Below the pieces are notes generated by a model that was given only the letters and a program-made list of their open reading frames with translations, was not told the origin of the DNA and made no database searches. Shown here piece by piece: positions 9,877-25,865 of a stretch of DNA of 64,000 bases (positions within the stretch are counted from its first letter, which is position 1; every line of letters begins with the position of its first letter). Origin of the DNA: Malaciobacter marinus. GTDB taxonomy: Bacteria; Campylobacterota; Campylobacteria; Campylobacterales; Arcobacteraceae. The position numbers and the translations under genes were made by a program. The DNA is taken from NCBI RefSeq assembly GCF_003544855.1, contig NZ_CP032101.1, forward strand, positions 2,046,001 through 2,110,000, given 5' to 3'.

Positions 9877-11223
9877 ATGGATTTACTAAAATCAATTCCG
9901 AAAGTTGATAAGTTTATCAAAAACAAAACTTTCGAGAATTATTCTATAAAACTTATAACAAAAATTGCAAAAGAGCAAATAAACCAATTAAGAGAAGATA
10001 TACTTTCAAATAAAACTAACAATTTCAATGAAGAACAGTTAATAGAAAATACAATCAATGAATATGAAAAAATAACAAAACCTTCACTTCAAAACCTGAT
10101 AAATGCAACAGGTATTATTGTACATACAAATTTAGGAAGAAGCCTAATAAGTCAAGAAAGTTTTGATAAAGTAAAAAAAGTTGCAAGCTCTTACAATAAC
10201 TTAGAGTATGATTTACAAGCTGGTAAAAGAGGTGAAAGATACTCTCATATAGTAAAAGCATTACAAAATCTTACAGCTTGTGAAGATGCAATTGTTGTAA
10301 ACAATAATGCAAGTGCAGTTTTTTTGATATTAAATACTTTTTCAAAAAATAAAGAAACTGTTGTAAGCAGAGGTGAACTTGTTGAAATTGGTGGGAGTTT
10401 TAGAGTTCCTGAAGTTATGACTCAAAGTGGAGCAATATTAAAAGAAATAGGAACTACAAATAAAACTCACAAAAAAGATTATGAAAATGCAATAAATGAA
10501 AACACTTCAATTCTTATGAAAGTTCACAAATCAAACTATTCAATTGAGGGCTTTACAAGTGAAGTTGAATTAAAAGATATTATTGAAGTTGCAAATAAAA
10601 ACAATGTAATTGATTATTTTGATATGGGTAGCGGTCATATGATTGACTTACCATATAATCTTGACTCAAAAGAGCCATCAATTTTAAAGATTATGGAAAA
10701 TAATCCTTCACTTTTAAGTTTTTCAGGAGATAAACTTCTAGGAAGTGTACAAGCTGGTGTAATAATTGGTAAAAAAGAACTTATTGAAAAAATTAAAAAA
10801 AATCAACTATTAAGAATGTTAAGGGTTGATAAAATAACTCTATGTTTATTAGAAGAGCATTTAAACTCTTACTTAAAAGATGAATTAAATAATATCCCTA
10901 CTTTAAAGATGCTTCATACTTCAATAGATGAGCTAAAAAAAAGAGCAACTTATGTAAAAAACTCTTTAGAAGATATTTGTAAATGTGAAGTAATAAATAC
11001 TCAAACACTAATAGGAGGAGGAACTACACCAAATAAAAAAATTCCTTCTATTGCAATTACAATTGAATATAAAGATTATAAACCAAACAAAATAGAAAAA
11101 CTTTTAAGAGAAAATGGAGTAATTTCAAGAATTGAAAATGAAAAAGTTTTATTTGATTTTAGAAGTATTCAAGAGTGTGAATTAGATGAGATTATAGCAA
11201 TAGTAAGAAAGGTTTTTAAATGA
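9877..11223 (+). CDS. selA: L-seryl-tRNA(Sec) selenium transferase
   Basis: PLP enzyme of 448 residues converting Ser-tRNA(Sec) to Sec-tRNA(Sec) using selenophosphate. Features include INATGIIVHTNLGRS near residue 75-90, NNNASAVFLILN, the TTNKTHKKDY segment, and the PLP-lysine motif FSGDKLLGSVQAG (K286). Family length is normal (about 450-465). The start at 9877 is the first ATG after a weak AAAGGC ribosome site. Its stop overlaps selB by 4 bp (ATGA), so SelA and SelB are translationally coupled. The tRNA-Sec gene lies in the 5' region on the other strand. Confidence 0.95.
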   Translation: MDLLKSIPKVDKFIKNKTFENYSIKLITKIAKEQINQLREDILSNKTNNFNEEQLIENTINEYEKITKPSLQNLINATGIIVHTNLGRSLISQESFDKVKKVASSYNNLEYDLQAGKRGERYSHIVKALQNLTACEDAIVVNNNASAVFLILNTFSKNKETVVSRGELVEIGGSFRVPEVMTQSGAILKEIGTTNKTHKKDYENAINENTSILMKVHKSNYSIEGFTSEVELKDIIEVANKNNVIDYFDMGSGHMIDLPYNLDSKEPSILKIMENNPSLLSFSGDKLLGSVQAGVIIGKKELIEKIKKNQLLRMLRVDKITLCLLEEHLNSYLKDELNNIPTLKMLHTSIDELKKRATYVKNSLEDICKCEVINTQTLIGGGTTPNKKIPSIAITIEYKDYKPNKIEKLLRENGVISRIENEKVLFDFRSIQECELDEIIAIVRKVFK

Positions 11224-13061
11224 GTAATATTATAATAGGAACAGCTGGACATATTGACCATGGTAAAACTTCGCTTATTAAAGCACTAAATGGTTATGAA
11301 GGTGATGAAACAAAAGAAGAGAAACAAAGAGGTATTACAATTGACTTATCTTTTTCAAATTTAAAAAGAGCACAACAAAATATTGCATTTATTGATGTTC
11401 CAGGTCATGAAAAACTTGTAAAAAATATGATTGCAGGAGCTTTCTCTTTTGATTGTGTTATGCTTGTAGTTGCTGCTAATGAAGGTATTATGCCACAAAC
11501 AGTTGAACACATAGAGATTATGAGTTTACTTGGGGTAAAAGAGTTAATTGTAGCAATAACTAAAAAAGATTTAGTTTTAAAAGAAGATTTAGAATTACAA
11601 AAAAATAGAATCAAAAATTTTTTAGAAGATTTTGATTTTGATTTAAAGTTTATATCTTGTGTTTCAACACATGATGAAAAATCAATTGAGTCATTAAAAG
11701 AGAAACTATTTACTTTAAAAAATACAAATAAAACTCAAGAAAACTTTTTTAGATACTATGTAGATAGGGTTTTTTCAGTAAAAGGTATTGGTACAGTTGT
11801 AACAGGAACAGTTTTAGGGAATAAATGTGAACTTGATGAAAAAGTTTTTATTCCACACCTAAATAAAGAAACAAGAATAAAAAATATTCAAGTGCACAAT
11901 CAAAATGCAATTGAAGCAAATATTTCAAATCGTACAGCATTAAACCTTCAAAATATAAAAGCTGTAGATTTAAAAAGAGGTGATTTAATCTCTAAAAAAG
12001 GTTTCTTAAGAGGTTTTGATACTTTAGATATTAGTTTTAAATGCTTAAAAGGAAAGCAACTTCATCATAATAGAACTTACTCTTTATTTATAGGTTCAAA
12101 AAAAGTTGAAGTTAAAGTTTTACTATTTGATTCAATTGCTAGTTTAGAAAGTGGCTTTGCAACAATAAAAGCAAAAGAACCTTTTTTTAGTATTTATAAA
12201 GAAAAAATTATATTAAGAGAATCAAATCATACTATTGCAGGTGGTATTGTATTAAACTGCGTAAATGATCCCATGAAAAAATCACAAAAGAAATTTCTTT
12301 TAAAATCTTTAGATGAAGCTGATTATAAGCAATCATACAAAATATTACTAGATGCTCATAAAAAAGGTTTAGGATTAATCTCATCAGCACAAAGATTTGC
12401 ACTAAGCCATGATCAAGCAGTAGAGTTTGGTAAAAATTTAGAAAATGTATTTTGCGATGAAAAAGAATTAGTTATTTATCCAATAGAAACAAAAGAGTAT
12501 ATAAAAAAACAAATAAAAGATATTTATACTAAAAATAAATATGCTTTGCTTTCAAATGCTGCTATTAAACTTAGAATCAAGTGGGCAAGTAGTTCTTTTA
12601 TACAAAGTGTTCTTGATGAGTTAGAAGAAGAAAAGTTTTTAGTAAAAGAGAGAAGTTTATATAAAAATGCAAATATTAAAGAAGATTTTTCAAAAAATTT
12701 AGAAGATATTGTAAGTAAAAGATTGGAAGAAGAAAATTTATCTCCAACGGCTCCATATAATATCTATGATGATTTAGATATTGATAGAAAACTAGGAGAT
12801 ACAATATTAAAGTCTCTTTGTTCAAAAAAACAAGTCTTTAGAATGCAACACAATTTATTTATTCATGCAAATAGTTTAACAAAGATTGTTCAAGAAATGA
12901 AAAATATAATAAAAGAAGATGGATATATTGATATAAAAAACTTTAAAGAAAGATACCCTCTAAGTAGAAAATATCTTATTGCATATCTTGATTATCTTGA
13001 TAACTTTTCACAAATAAAAAAAGTTGATAATAAAAGAGTATTTTTAAGTGAGTTTGTATAA
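11220..13061 (+). CDS. selB: Selenocysteine-specific translation elongation factor
   Basis: GTPase of 613 residues delivering Sec-tRNA(Sec) to the ribosome at UGA/SECIS. G1 is GHIDHGKTS (residues 10-18), followed by the switch region with RGITIDLSF, DVPGHEKLV (G3) and TKKDL (G4), then EF-Tu-like beta-barrel domains and C-terminal winged-helix repeats that recognise SECIS RNA (about residues 380-613). Length matches bacterial SelB. It overlaps selA by 4 bp. It is followed by a short hairpin (13048-13067, GTGAGTTT/AAACTCAC). Confidence 0.95.
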   Translation: MSNIIIGTAGHIDHGKTSLIKALNGYEGDETKEEKQRGITIDLSFSNLKRAQQNIAFIDVPGHEKLVKNMIAGAFSFDCVMLVVAANEGIMPQTVEHIEIMSLLGVKELIVAITKKDLVLKEDLELQKNRIKNFLEDFDFDLKFISCVSTHDEKSIESLKEKLFTLKNTNKTQENFFRYYVDRVFSVKGIGTVVTGTVLGNKCELDEKVFIPHLNKETRIKNIQVHNQNAIEANISNRTALNLQNIKAVDLKRGDLISKKGFLRGFDTLDISFKCLKGKQLHHNRTYSLFIGSKKVEVKVLLFDSIASLESGFATIKAKEPFFSIYKEKIILRESNHTIAGGIVLNCVNDPMKKSQKKFLLKSLDEADYKQSYKILLDAHKKGLGLISSAQRFALSHDQAVEFGKNLENVFCDEKELVIYPIETKEYIKKQIKDIYTKNKYALLSNAAIKLRIKWASSSFIQSVLDELEEEKFLVKERSLYKNANIKEDFSKNLEDIVSKRLEEENLSPTAPYNIYDDLDIDRKLGDTILKSLCSKKQVFRMQHNLFIHANSLTKIVQEMKNIIKEDGYIDIKNFKERYPLSRKYLIAYLDYLDNFSQIKKVDNKRVFLSEFV

Positions 13062-13485: not shown

Positions 13486-14868
13486 ATGAAAGAAAAAATA
13501 TATGTACTAGACACTAATATTATCTTACAAAACATTCAAAATCTAAATAGAATTTCAGATAATAAAAGCAATAAAATTGTAATTCCTGAAACCGTTTTAT
13601 TAGAACTTGAAGATAAGAAAAAATTAGTTAATGAATTAGGTTTTTATGCAAGAGAGTTTGCTAGATTATTAGCTAAAATGAAAATCAAAGAAGTTGATTA
13701 TAAAACTGGATATAAAGTAGTAAAGCTTTTCAATAAAGAGATTAGTTTAGATATTATTTCAAAAAATACCTATGAATCACAAATTGAACAAGCACACATA
13801 AGTGAAAGCAATGATAAAAGAATCATTGAAACAGCTGCTTTAGCACAAGAATATTACAAAGGAGCACAAACTATTTTTGTCTCACTTGATGTTTATGCTA
13901 GAACGTTTGCTCTTTTTAAAGGTTTAAAAGCTGAAACATTACATGATGATAAATCAACAGTTCCCACTTTTGAATTTATTAAATATATAAACTTGGATTC
14001 TTCCTTATTTAATAGTTTAGAACAAGTAGATATAAAAACCATTGATAAAAATTACACCAATGAAAACTTTTCTTACTGCTTTGAAAGTAATGATGGAAAT
14101 AAAGTATTTGCACTTATAATAAATGAAAAAATAAACCTTTTAAATGAGTCTGATTTTAAAGCTTTAAATGTTAAACCTGTAAACTTAAAGCAAAAACTTT
14201 TTATGAAGGCTATTTTATCAAATATGTATGATTTGCTTGTGATTGATGCAAAAGCAGGAAGTGGTAAAACATTGATATCAGTAGTATCAGCAATGAGACT
14301 AATTGATTTAGGTTTTTATGACAAGATAGTTTATGTAAGAAACTCTATAGAATCCCTAGATAAAGGTGCAGATATAGGATATCTAGCTGGAAATGATGAA
14401 AAATTTAGAATATATAATATGGCATTATCAGATACATTAGAGTTTATTGCAAAAAAACAGCTAAGAAAAAATGAGAATAAAGAGAATAAAGAATCAATTG
14501 AATCAAAAATAAGTGAACTTACTTCAAAATATTGCATAGAAACATTATGGCCTGGAGAAGCAAGAGGAAGAACTTTAAATAGTTCAATAGTAATCATGGA
14601 TGAATGGCAAAATTCAAGTGAAAAAACAAGTCAACTAATTTTAAGTAGATTAGATGAATCTTGTATGGCAATAGTCATTGGTTCTAATAGACAAATAGAT
14701 AATTTATATTTAAATAAATATAATAATGGACTTACATCATTATTAAAACAAACATCAAAAAAACATGAAGAGATAAATATGTTTGCAATAGAATTAGACA
14801 AAGCAGTAAGAGGGAAATTCGCAGAATTTACAGAAAGAATTTTTGAAAAAGTAAAAAATAGAGTATAA
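13486..14868 (+). CDS. PIN domain - PhoH-type ATPase fusion protein
   Basis: Protein of 460 residues. The N-terminal PIN nuclease-like domain (residues 1-140) has KIYVLDTNIIL with the first acidic site and a later SNDKRIIETA region. The C-terminal PhoH ATPase has Walker A AKAGSGKTLISV (about residues 255-266), a Walker B-like IVIMDEWQNSS and an arginine-bearing DKAVRGKFAEF near the end. These PhoH2-like proteins are thought to be RNA-processing ATPases or RNases. No ribosome site is visible; TACAAT lies exactly six bases before the ATG, so the mRNA may be leaderless. It ends at a bidirectional terminator. Confidence 0.88.
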   Translation: MKEKIYVLDTNIILQNIQNLNRISDNKSNKIVIPETVLLELEDKKKLVNELGFYAREFARLLAKMKIKEVDYKTGYKVVKLFNKEISLDIISKNTYESQIEQAHISESNDKRIIETAALAQEYYKGAQTIFVSLDVYARTFALFKGLKAETLHDDKSTVPTFEFIKYINLDSSLFNSLEQVDIKTIDKNYTNENFSYCFESNDGNKVFALIINEKINLLNESDFKALNVKPVNLKQKLFMKAILSNMYDLLVIDAKAGSGKTLISVVSAMRLIDLGFYDKIVYVRNSIESLDKGADIGYLAGNDEKFRIYNMALSDTLEFIAKKQLRKNENKENKESIESKISELTSKYCIETLWPGEARGRTLNSSIVIMDEWQNSSEKTSQLILSRLDESCMAIVIGSNRQIDNLYLNKYNNGLTSLLKQTSKKHEEINMFAIELDKAVRGKFAEFTERIFEKVKNRV

Positions 14869-14881: not shown

Positions 14882-15001
14882 ACTTGAGCAGTTTCCTCCA
14901 CCGCCACAACCACAATCACCTTTTTTCTTAAAAGTTTTTCTGTATAAATAAAATAAGCAAGCAATTGCAATACCAATAATAATATAATCTTCTGTTGTCA
15001 T
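14873..15001 (-). CDS. FeoB-associated-type Cys-rich small membrane protein
   Basis: A 42-residue protein: a short N-terminus (MTTEDY), one transmembrane helix (IIIGIAIACLFYLY), a basic stretch (RKTFKKKG) and a Cys/Gly-rich tail (DCGCGGGGNCSSKK). This is the pattern of the FeoB-associated Cys-rich membrane protein family, small proteins usually next to the ferrous iron transporter FeoB. The start at 15001 has a good ribosome site (AAGGATATTGA). No feoA or feoB gene is in the window, so this copy is an orphan here. An iron or other metal role is inferred only from the family. Confidence 0.75.
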   Translation of the reverse strand: MTTEDYIIIGIAIACLFYLYRKTFKKKGDCGCGGGGNCSSKK

Positions 15002-15148
15002 TCAATATCCTTATTAATAATCATTATTAAAATAATACTCTTTTTTAACTTTAGTAATTATAATGCAATAAATTTTTGTAATAATATATAATTAAGCAAT
15101 TTTATTGTTAGATAAAAATATAATAATAAAAAACAAAAGGGATTTATA

Positions 15149-16825
15149 ATAATACACAATAGATTAATAAATGATACTATATACAATCATATAGAATATA
15201 CTAAATTAGAAGATAAACTATTACAAACTAAAATAGTTAACAGGTTACAATTTATTACACAAAATGCATTAGCATACTTTTCTTATCCATCAATAACAAC
15301 AAAAAGATTTATTCATTCTTTAGGAACAATGCATTTAAGTTCATTTATGTTTAAAAACTCACTTTTAAATGCAGATAAAGATACTAAAGATGAGTTTTTA
15401 AAACAAGCAAAAGCAGTAATAAAAAGTATAATAAAAGAGAATAAATTAGATTTACAAATAAAAGATTTAGAGTATTTTGATAATAAAGCACTATATCAAT
15501 TTACAATTCCTACAAAATCAAAATCACAAAGAGCAGTGTATACAATACTACTTCAAACAATGAGAATTGTTGGATTACTCCATGATGTAGGACACTTACC
15601 CTTCTCTCACCAAGTAGAACATGCTTTAAAAAAAGTCTATATAAAGATTTTAGAAAAAGATACTTTACTTGAAAAAGAAAAAGAGTTTAAAAGAGTTTAT
15701 GAAGAAATTACTAATAACTCAACTTTAGTTTTACATGAAGCAATAGGAAAAAAACTTTTAGATTTACTTTTTGACTTTGAACTTACAAAACTTGTAAAAA
15801 AAAGTTCAAATAAAGATTATATACAACTTCTAAAAATAGTTGCAAAATATATACTTGAAGATAAAAATTACAATGGTTTTGATTTTGCTGTATTACATAA
15901 ATATATTGATGGAACTGTTGATTCTGATAGATTAGATTACATAAATAGAGATATGTTATCAAGTGGTTATATAACTGGTCCAATTGATCATATTAGAATT
16001 ACAAAACAGACAATCTTAGTAAAAAAATATGATAAATTTGTACTTAGTTTTTTAGATATGTCATTGATTGATATCGAACATATGCTAGAACTTAGATTCA
16101 ATCTTTATAAAAAAGTAATCTATAACCATGGCATTGCAAAAACAGATGCAGTTTTAGAAAATGTTGTACAATATTTATCAGATAATTACTTTAATAGTGA
16201 AAAAAAGATTGAAAAACTTTCACACTCTATTTCTATGCTTTGGAAGTTTTTAGATGAAAAAGAGATATCAAATAGCTTAGATACAGTAAGTTTACTTGAT
16301 GAAAATTGGTTAATTAGTCTTTTTAAAGATGAATACTTTAAAATCAAAAATAGTAAATCTTTAACAAGAAGAGATCAAAAATATTTATATTGTTTTGAAG
16401 AGGTTCTTTTTGGCAAAAGAGTATTTTCAAGTCCTTGGAAAAACTTAAATGAATTTTATAAAGTATTAGATTTTACAACAGTAGAAAGATACAAATTTAG
16501 AGAAAGTTTTGGATATATAACAGATTTTAGAATGAAAAAACTACAAAAAGCTCTTGATTGTTTTGTAAATAAATGGGAAGTTGAAAAAAAAGAAGCTTTT
16601 TTAACATATAAAATTGTATCTTTTAGTTTAGGAGTTGAAAAAGATTTTTGTTTTTATGATGGTGATGAATTAGTAAATATAGATGAAGTATCAACACTTA
16701 GAAAAAGACTTAAATACTCTATGAGAAATACTGTTCCATTTTATATTTATATCAATAAAAAATATTTAACTAAACAAATGAAAGAAGAGTTAAAGACAAT
16801 ACTATTTAATATCTTTAGTGAATAA
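15149..16825 (+). CDS. HD-domain phosphohydrolase (dGTPase/SAMHD1-like), non-AUG start
   Basis: HD-superfamily metal-dependent phosphohydrolase with LLHDVGHLPFSHQ as the HD motif (H145-D146 with this start) and later DSDRLDYINRD. The first ATG in frame is at 15329, but the frame is open back to a TAA at 15113. The codons before 15329 encode conserved family sequence (LEDKLLQTKIVNRLQFI, then TTKRFIHSLGTMHLS, equivalent to the RLR...HSLGV region of SAMHD1-type proteins). No ATG, GTG or TTG occurs there. AAAGGGA (15136-15142) precedes three ATA codons (15146, 15149, 15152), so AUA is the probable start; 15149 is chosen for spacing. The product is about 558 residues. Substrate unknown. Confidence 0.8.
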   Translation: MIHNRLINDTIYNHIEYTKLEDKLLQTKIVNRLQFITQNALAYFSYPSITTKRFIHSLGTMHLSSFMFKNSLLNADKDTKDEFLKQAKAVIKSIIKENKLDLQIKDLEYFDNKALYQFTIPTKSKSQRAVYTILLQTMRIVGLLHDVGHLPFSHQVEHALKKVYIKILEKDTLLEKEKEFKRVYEEITNNSTLVLHEAIGKKLLDLLFDFELTKLVKKSSNKDYIQLLKIVAKYILEDKNYNGFDFAVLHKYIDGTVDSDRLDYINRDMLSSGYITGPIDHIRITKQTILVKKYDKFVLSFLDMSLIDIEHMLELRFNLYKKVIYNHGIAKTDAVLENVVQYLSDNYFNSEKKIEKLSHSISMLWKFLDEKEISNSLDTVSLLDENWLISLFKDEYFKIKNSKSLTRRDQKYLYCFEEVLFGKRVFSSPWKNLNEFYKVLDFTTVERYKFRESFGYITDFRMKKLQKALDCFVNKWEVEKKEAFLTYKIVSFSLGVEKDFCFYDGDELVNIDEVSTLRKRLKYSMRNTVPFYIYINKKYLTKQMKEELKTILFNIFSE

Positions 16826-24345: not shown

Positions 24346-25716
24346 TTACCTTTTATAGACTTGATATTTTTTACCTTTGATTTTATTGTTATTCAATTCT
24401 TTTAAAACTTTTAATTCATACTCTTTTTTTATTGCAACATAAGAATGAAATGTAAAAATATCAATATTACCAATATCCTCACTTTTTAAACCTACTTGAT
24501 GAATCAATGCACCAACAATATCTCCAGCTCTTAATTTATTTTTTTTACCACCATTAATATATAAAGTTCTATATTCAGGTATTAAATTATAAGATAAATC
24601 ATCTTCTAAATTTTGTATTGAACTAAATTCAATATCATTATAAAGCTCTTTTATTTCTTCAATTTCATATTCATTAGTATATAAAGTAATAGCTTTACCC
24701 TTTGCTTGTGCTCTTGCAGTTCTTCCAATTCTATGAGTATGAACTTTTTCATCTTTTGCTACATCATAATTTATAACTAAATCAATATCATCAATATTCA
24801 ACCCCCTTGAAGCAACATCTGTTGCAATCATAATAGGATAAGATTTATTTGAAAAAAGTACAACAGTTTCATCTCTTTGCTTTTGATCCAAATCACTATT
24901 TAAAACAACACAATCAAATCCCAATTCAAATATTTCATCTGCTAACTCTTCACAAGTTACTTTTCTATTACAAAAAATCAAAACAGAACTTGCTTTATTT
25001 GATGAAATTAAAGAAGGAATAAGTGAAGTTTTTGAAGCTTGAGTAATCTTATAAAAAGCTTGAGTAATTTTTTGATTAGAGTGTATATCTTCATCTTGTA
25101 TAAATACTGGATTATTTAAAATATCTTTTGCTAAAACTTTTATATTTTCTTCAAAAGTTGCAGAAAATAATGAAGTCTGTCTATTATCTTTTGGCAATTC
25201 ATTAACTATTGAAATCACATCTTCATAAAATCCCATATCAAGCATTTTGTCAGCTTCATCTAAAACTAATGTCTTAATATTTTCTAACTCTATATTATTT
25301 TCACTAATATGTTTTAATAATCTTCCAGGAGTTCCAACTACAATATGTGCTTTATGCTTTAATGAAGCTGCTTGTGGCTTAAAAGGAACTCCTCCACATA
25401 AAGTTAAAACTTTTACATTATGAATATGCCTACAAAGTTTTTTAATCTCTTGTGCAACTTGATTTGCTAGTTCTCTTGTTGGGCAAATCACCATTGATTG
25501 AATTGTAAACTTTTTTACTTCTAACTTTTCAACAAGAGGAATACTAAAAGATATGGTTTTTCCACTACCTGTTTTTGCTTGTGCTATTACATCACTATTA
25601 TTAAGTAATAAAGGAAGAGTTTTTTCTTGAATTTTAGTCATATTTTTAAACTCTAAAGAGTTAAGATTTTCTAAAAGTTCTTTAGAAATATTAAGAGAAT
25701 TAAATGTTGAGATAAT
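24346..25716 (-). CDS. dbpA: DEAD-box RNA helicase DbpA, apparent AUU/AUC start
   Basis: ATP-dependent RNA helicase for 23S rRNA/50S assembly. Motif I is AQAKTGSGKT, then PTRELANQ, VLDEADKMLD (DEAD), SATFE, and HRIGRTARA (VI). The C-terminal domain (about the last 75 residues) is the DbpA RNA-binding RRM that recognises 23S helix 92. The first ATG (25641) would remove the Q motif region. The frame is open upstream to a stop, reading FNSLNISKELLENL, which is normal DEAD N-terminal sequence. It contains no ATG, GTG or TTG. AAAAAGG (ending at 25721) precedes ATT (25714-25716) and ATC (25711-25713). The product from 25716 is 456 residues. Confidence 0.88.
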   Translation of the reverse strand: MISTFNSLNISKELLENLNSLEFKNMTKIQEKTLPLLLNNSDVIAQAKTGSGKTISFSIPLVEKLEVKKFTIQSMVICPTRELANQVAQEIKKLCRHIHNVKVLTLCGGVPFKPQAASLKHKAHIVVGTPGRLLKHISENNIELENIKTLVLDEADKMLDMGFYEDVISIVNELPKDNRQTSLFSATFEENIKVLAKDILNNPVFIQDEDIHSNQKITQAFYKITQASKTSLIPSLISSNKASSVLIFCNRKVTCEELADEIFELGFDCVVLNSDLDQKQRDETVVLFSNKSYPIMIATDVASRGLNIDDIDLVINYDVAKDEKVHTHRIGRTARAQAKGKAITLYTNEYEIEEIKELYNDIEFSSIQNLEDDLSYNLIPEYRTLYINGGKKNKLRAGDIVGALIHQVGLKSEDIGNIDIFTFHSYVAIKKEYELKVLKELNNNKIKGKKYQVYKR

Positions 25717-25865
25717 GAAACCTTTTTAATTAGTATTATAACATATTTTATAAAATAATAAACAAATACTTTAAAAAGCTATTAAGCAATATTTATATAA
25801 TCTAATTAATAATAAATAAAGAAGTAAAATGAGAGAAAAAAATAAGTGTCAAAAAAGGGGTTACA

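Follow-up and report, generated by a model that had tools for sequence, protein, structure and literature searches.

The window analysed here is a stretch of 64,000 nucleotides from Malaciobacter marinus, whose genome (G000) consists of one 2.92-Mb contig and is 100% complete. It carries the only copy in this genome of a gene for an HD phosphohydrolase (the HD gene), with an open frame that runs from 15116 to 16825 on the forward strand. The features that bear on the start of this gene are as follows.

13486 to 14868, forward strand: gene for a PIN-PhoH-like ATPase (phoH), which adjoins or overlaps the HD gene in many relatives and lies ~280 nt from it here.
15113 to 15115, forward strand: in-frame TAA stop, read from the sequence, that bounds the HD frame upstream.
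15136 to 15142, forward strand: Shine–Dalgarno (SD) sequence AAAGGGA; its AAGG is 8 nt from the ATA at 15149, and its predicted pairing with the 16S tail is −5.3 kcal/mol.
15149 to 15151, forward strand: likeliest start codon, ATA; the pattern AAGG-N8-ATH is preserved in 6/6 genomes of the genus.
15152 to 15154, forward strand: alternative start codon, ATA, homologous to the AUH, TTG or ATG start codon of other genera.
15149 to 16825, forward strand: HD phosphohydrolase gene of the SAMHD1-like dNTPase superfamily, ~558 codons plus stop, with the motifs H (RFIHSLG), HD (LLHDVGH) and D (DSDRLDY).
15329 to 15331, forward strand: first in-frame ATG, placed by homologue alignment after the first catalytic His and coding for a conserved internal Met (GTMHL).

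Reading of the frame confirmed the observation of the first-pass annotation that no ATG, GTG, TTG or CTG occurs from the stop at 15113 until the ATG at 15329, 71 codons past the TAA. For the open reading frames of the window, the median distance from the stop to the first start is 3 codons, and longer start-less stretches number only three, within short ORFs of 128–152 codons that look like chance frames. The annotation had also noted AAAGGGA ahead of three ATA codons (15146–15154). The arrangement is as described. Alignment with relatives places the start not at the first of these codons but at 15149 or 15152, the second or the third. Of the two, 15149 is preferred because the pattern in the genus is AAGG-N8-ATH-ATA-CAC/CAT.

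The 60 codons that precede 15329 can be aligned to SAMHD1 and to HD phosphohydrolases of bacteria, and the aligned part takes in RFIHSLG, where the first metal-binding His lies. This bears out the earlier description of the region as SAMHD1-like. The H...HD...D metal-binding motif is found in an HD fold, and residues H56, H145, D146, D258 and D260 are invariant (alignment A1). An AlphaFold2 model built from 33 homologues has a mean pLDDT of 81 and a pTM of 0.82, with the first 13 residues poorly modelled. Foldseek matches the model to SAMHD1, to 4lrl/2o6i of E. faecalis and to BT4208 (2q14), all with a probability of 1.0 and identities of 13–17%. The curated family cut-offs are not reached: there is no Pfam (HD) match, and the NCBIfam (dGTPase) score of 18.7 bits falls short of the cut-off, 393. 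From its fold and motifs, the protein would be a dNTPase. It has both in common with SAMHD1 and the bacterial SAMHD1-like proteins (4lrl/2o6i, 2q14 and 2hek of A. aeolicus), but with identities to that set of only 13–17% it forms a family of its own, whose members come from Arcobacteraceae and from a small number of the order's other families. A product begun at 15329 would be without H56.

The HD gene is present in 68/104 Arcobacteraceae genomes, and we read the N-termini of 67 homologues. In 59 rows of the alignment, drawn from about a dozen genera, the start codon is AUH or TTG (ATA 41, ATT 9, ATC 7, TTG 2, ATG 0), and in the other 8, from genera g2, g7 and g12, it is ATG, with exact alignment in L024 and L071. 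Two HD homologues from another family, f16 (L164/L165), also have ATG at the homologous position. In the 59 rows this position lies four codons ahead of [L]INDTI and is mostly followed by CAA or CAC, AAT and AGA. The protein is conserved from the AUH codon onward, and upstream of it only the SD is conserved. In a tree from which the first 15 residues were left out, a single branch separates the ATG rows from the AUH/TTG rows. The third base has changed ~13 times in the AUH clade, and 0 of these changes gave ATG. Comparison of the rows thus shows the predicted AUH start to be old in the clade, and the occurrence of ATA, ATC or ATT at the homologous place supports the proposal of the first-pass annotation that the HD gene is initiated at AUA.

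Codons 2–60 have a dN of 0.00–0.04 and a dS of 0.56–2.7 against relatives of the genus and of two other genera and, because dN is low against dS, are taken to be translated and constrained. Neither ATG at the start nor a frameshift was seen in any AUH-clade row, and the genomes of the same genus agree with G000, so an error in base calling is not the cause. Sequencing or assembly errors, or a frameshifted or decaying gene, are frequent explanations for oddities of single genomes, but 59 genomes, including several single-contig assemblies, show the pattern independently and the frame is intact across 558 codons with low dN, so that such an explanation has next to no probability here. It is also most improbable that translation begins at the ATG at 15329 and gives a shorter protein. 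This ATG is the first canonical start and is ATG in 57/57 homologues. Against this, the homologues do not begin there, the Met is accounted for as an internal residue of GTMHL, outgroup homologues with a normal ATG begin at the AUH position, and purifying selection is stronger on the 60 codons ahead of 15329, among them that of the first catalytic His, than on the remaining gene.

A further possibility is that the frame is entered in some other way, from an upstream non-AUG start, by stop readthrough or by frameshifting from phoH, the AUH codon then being a plain Ile codon. In many relatives phoH either overlaps the AUH or ends no more than 26 nt from it, and an internal Ile codon would likewise never be ATG. 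However, phoH ends 230–314 nt upstream in the genus of the window and in others, and in several relatives it was not found within 1.5 kb upstream of the HD gene. Moreover, several genomes have stops 0–3 codons 5′ of the AUH. In L015 an in-frame TAG immediately precedes the ATA, and a stop lies three codons 5′ of the AUH in L007, L009, L010, L045–L047, L049 and L068, with GGA TTT AAA, GAG AAA ACT and similar codons between, none a plausible start. Finally, TTG and ATG are found at the homologous codon, and its third-base usage is unlike that of Ile codons. We therefore consider entry from upstream highly improbable. Coupling to phoH as the cause of the AUH start was also rejected; AUH is kept where phoH is ~280 nt away or was not found.

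The region between phoH and the HD gene holds, on the opposite strand, a small frame resembling a Cys-rich membrane protein (~14884–14999). Upstream, selA and selB lie within the window at 9877–13061. Elsewhere in G000, a formate-dehydrogenase-like frame (C1:1998656–2000476, reverse strand) opens after an in-frame TGA preceding HAPTVAGLAKT, and this TGA looks like a selenocysteine codon.

An AAGG or AGGA is found 7–11 nt 5′ of the start, mostly 7–8 nt, in 59/59 rows of the AUH clade. The predicted pairing with the 16S tail has a mean of −5.5 kcal/mol in the clade and −1.1 kcal/mol in the ATG homologues (Mann–Whitney p ~5e-6, kinship ignored). For scale, the median over 502 ATG genes of G000 is −4.65 kcal/mol, and AAGG occurs in 279/606 genes of this genome, 7 nt being its commonest spacing. 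The SD is strong in the AUH genes and weak in the ATG homologues, and therefore a gain in the SD accompanied the loss of AUG. The initiator tRNA is present as three identical conventional copies (C1–A72, three G–C pairs, anticodon CAU). Among the tRNA genes read, none had a UAU anticodon. A variant initiator reading AUA was rejected on the same grounds, no initiator with another anticodon having been found.

At the start codon itself, ATA makes up ~70% of the codons against 27–39% of Ile codons in the same genes (the rows are related and no p-value is claimed). The absence of a third-base G suggests selection against AUG, but was dropped as stand-alone proof of it, since at fourfold sites of the same genes, where 19% of changes end in G, 5/23 comparably variable sites also never have G.

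Taken together, the AUA start of the HD gene is well supported by the sequence comparisons, and can be put down neither to sequencing error nor to a local peculiarity. We consider it very likely that the gene is translated from AUA at 15149 or 15152.

The HD gene is no isolated case: with the dbpA-like gene of the window and five more from a survey of start codons over 1.205 Mb (41%) of G000, covering 1,062 ORFs and requiring AAGG 7–9 nt before AUH, at least six further genes of the genome look alike. The screen was limited to non-overlapping genes, as antisense shadow frames swamp a raw scan of conserved ORFs, and it can detect a gene only if the next canonical start lies far downstream; its conservative total of seven AUH genes in 1.2 Mb (HD, dbpA and five others) is thus an undercount. 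The identities of the five others come from Pfam. The six genes, the first in window coordinates and the others in those of contig C1 of G000, are listed below.

24346 to 25713, reverse strand: dbpA-like DEAD-box helicase gene with AAAGG-N7-ATC, the ATC at 25713–25711; the open frame is 24349–25725 (reverse strand) and its first ATG is codon 29.
1992119 to 1993405 (L278), forward strand: RhlE-like DEAD-box helicase gene; its first canonical codon lies 65 codons into the frame.
2118344 to 2118682, reverse strand: rnpA, with an apparent ATT start immediately after the rpmH stop.
1642137 to 1642850, forward strand: Aat-like Leu_Phe_trans gene with an AAAGG-N7-AUH leader.
2349143 to 2349898, forward strand: alpha/beta hydrolase gene with an AAAGG-N7-AUH leader, read in G000.
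2350991 to 2351887, reverse strand: DUF234 gene with AAGG 7–9 nt before AUH.

All six seem to need AUH starts. The leader of the dbpA-like gene reads AAAGGTTTCATT-ATC, and its first ATG is close to where the helicase domain begins (residue 30 for Pfam DEAD). Manual reading of 30 loci of this family gave 23 in which AUH is needed, 4 with ATG and 3 with TTG. The RhlE-like gene has AUH in 28/30 family loci (ATC in 20), with AAGG-N7 in 27 of those. For rnpA the start is ATT in 22/25 placed loci, across families of the order, and ATT is visible in others too; this gene may be translationally coupled to rpmH, whose stop it adjoins. The DUF234 gene (L348–L367) has AAAGG-N7-AUH in most genera, with a stop one codon before the AUH in some. 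AUH thus extends across genera for dbpA, RhlE-like, rnpA and DUF234 and is kept mainly within the genus for the Aat-like gene, where it is found in 6/6 genomes and replaced by ATG, GTG or TTG in many others.

We propose that the ordinary initiator tRNA (CAU) would initiate at AUA with the aid of a strong, well-spaced SD. Because the third base of the codon mismatches the anticodon, initiation would be weak and IF3 could reject it, and the output of a potentially dNTP-depleting hydrolase would stay low and vary with the condition of the initiation machinery. A weak start rescued by a strong SD would keep synthesis low and sensitive to IF3, in the manner of infC, pcnB and ccpN of S. aureus. A few genes of these bacteria seem to use the same device, AAGG mostly at 7 nt and AUH, several of them in RNA processing (dbpA, RhlE-like and rnpA).

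Precedents come from other bacteria. E. coli infC and pcnB start with AUU. They have a conserved weak AUH start like that of the HD gene and are tied to translation or RNA metabolism. E. coli infC, however, autoregulates through IF3, which the HD gene cannot do, and the infC start in these bacteria is TTG (28/30 loci shown from the order, L076–L105; not AUU, AUA or AUC), so that autoregulation through an AUH infC was rejected. The S. aureus genes ccpN (AUA), cvfC1 (AUU), citZ (AUA) and infC (AUA) resemble the HD gene in having AUH starts with extended or strong SDs, and for ccpN and cvfC1 the AUH is likewise kept among relatives (PMC13009471). They are other genes in another phylum, and the SD of the HD gene is of ordinary length (AAAGG/AAGGA). 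The S. aureus AUU and AUA starts with strong SDs give ~10% of the output of AUG reporters, with ccpN reaching up to 30% in rich medium; their lowered output was established by initiation profiling and reporters (PMC13009471). In Streptomyces, sigR has a non-canonical start with a strong ribosome-binding site, conserved in the genus and misannotated to a canonical codon, as with the HD gene; its start is GTC rather than AUH, and its repression by IF3 is proven, where for the HD gene such control is inferred (PMC5472188). By analogy with these systems, reduced output from the AUH start of the HD gene is probable. Control of the gene by IF3 in vivo, for which the analogy is with other bacteria, is a tentative proposal that we would put a little below an even balance.

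The principal alternative is a real AUH start with no regulatory role, in which the SD was strengthened, AUG drifted away and stabilising selection on output maintains the pair. The compensatory pattern of weak SDs with AUG homologues and strong ones with AUH is as expected from this, the absence of a third-base G is statistically weak, and the Aat-like and dbpA genes alternate between AUH, ATG and TTG from genus to genus. On the other hand, AUH has been kept through about a dozen genera and ~12 third-base changes with 0 reversions to AUG, and the AUH state is common to several unrelated genes, with the rnpA ATT found across families of the order. Such an unregulated start is a substantial possibility, though one we lean against. 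As to the regulatory reading, the Arcobacteraceae, joined in the case of rnpA by further families of the order, may keep a standing class of AUH genes that share the signature AAGG, mostly 7 nt, AUH, are enriched in RNA processing (two DEAD-box helicases and the RNase P protein) and act as a regulon set by IF3 outside infC; we hold this view with some reserve, leaning slightly against it as it stands.

AUH starts are commonly regarded as a peculiarity of infC and a handful of other genes. As a device they are already known (infC, pcnB, ccpN and sigR); the breadth, with several unrelated genes in one bacterial family, would be the new part. We found no earlier report of AUH starts in Arcobacter or its relatives in the open-licence literature, although one may exist. 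Gene finders that accept only ATG, GTG and TTG truncate such proteins, and in the HD gene a catalytic His is lost. If IF3 sets their output, these genes would provide a multi-gene natural test of start-codon discrimination in these bacteria, one that extends to a possible coupling of RNase P and RNA helicases with the initiation machinery.
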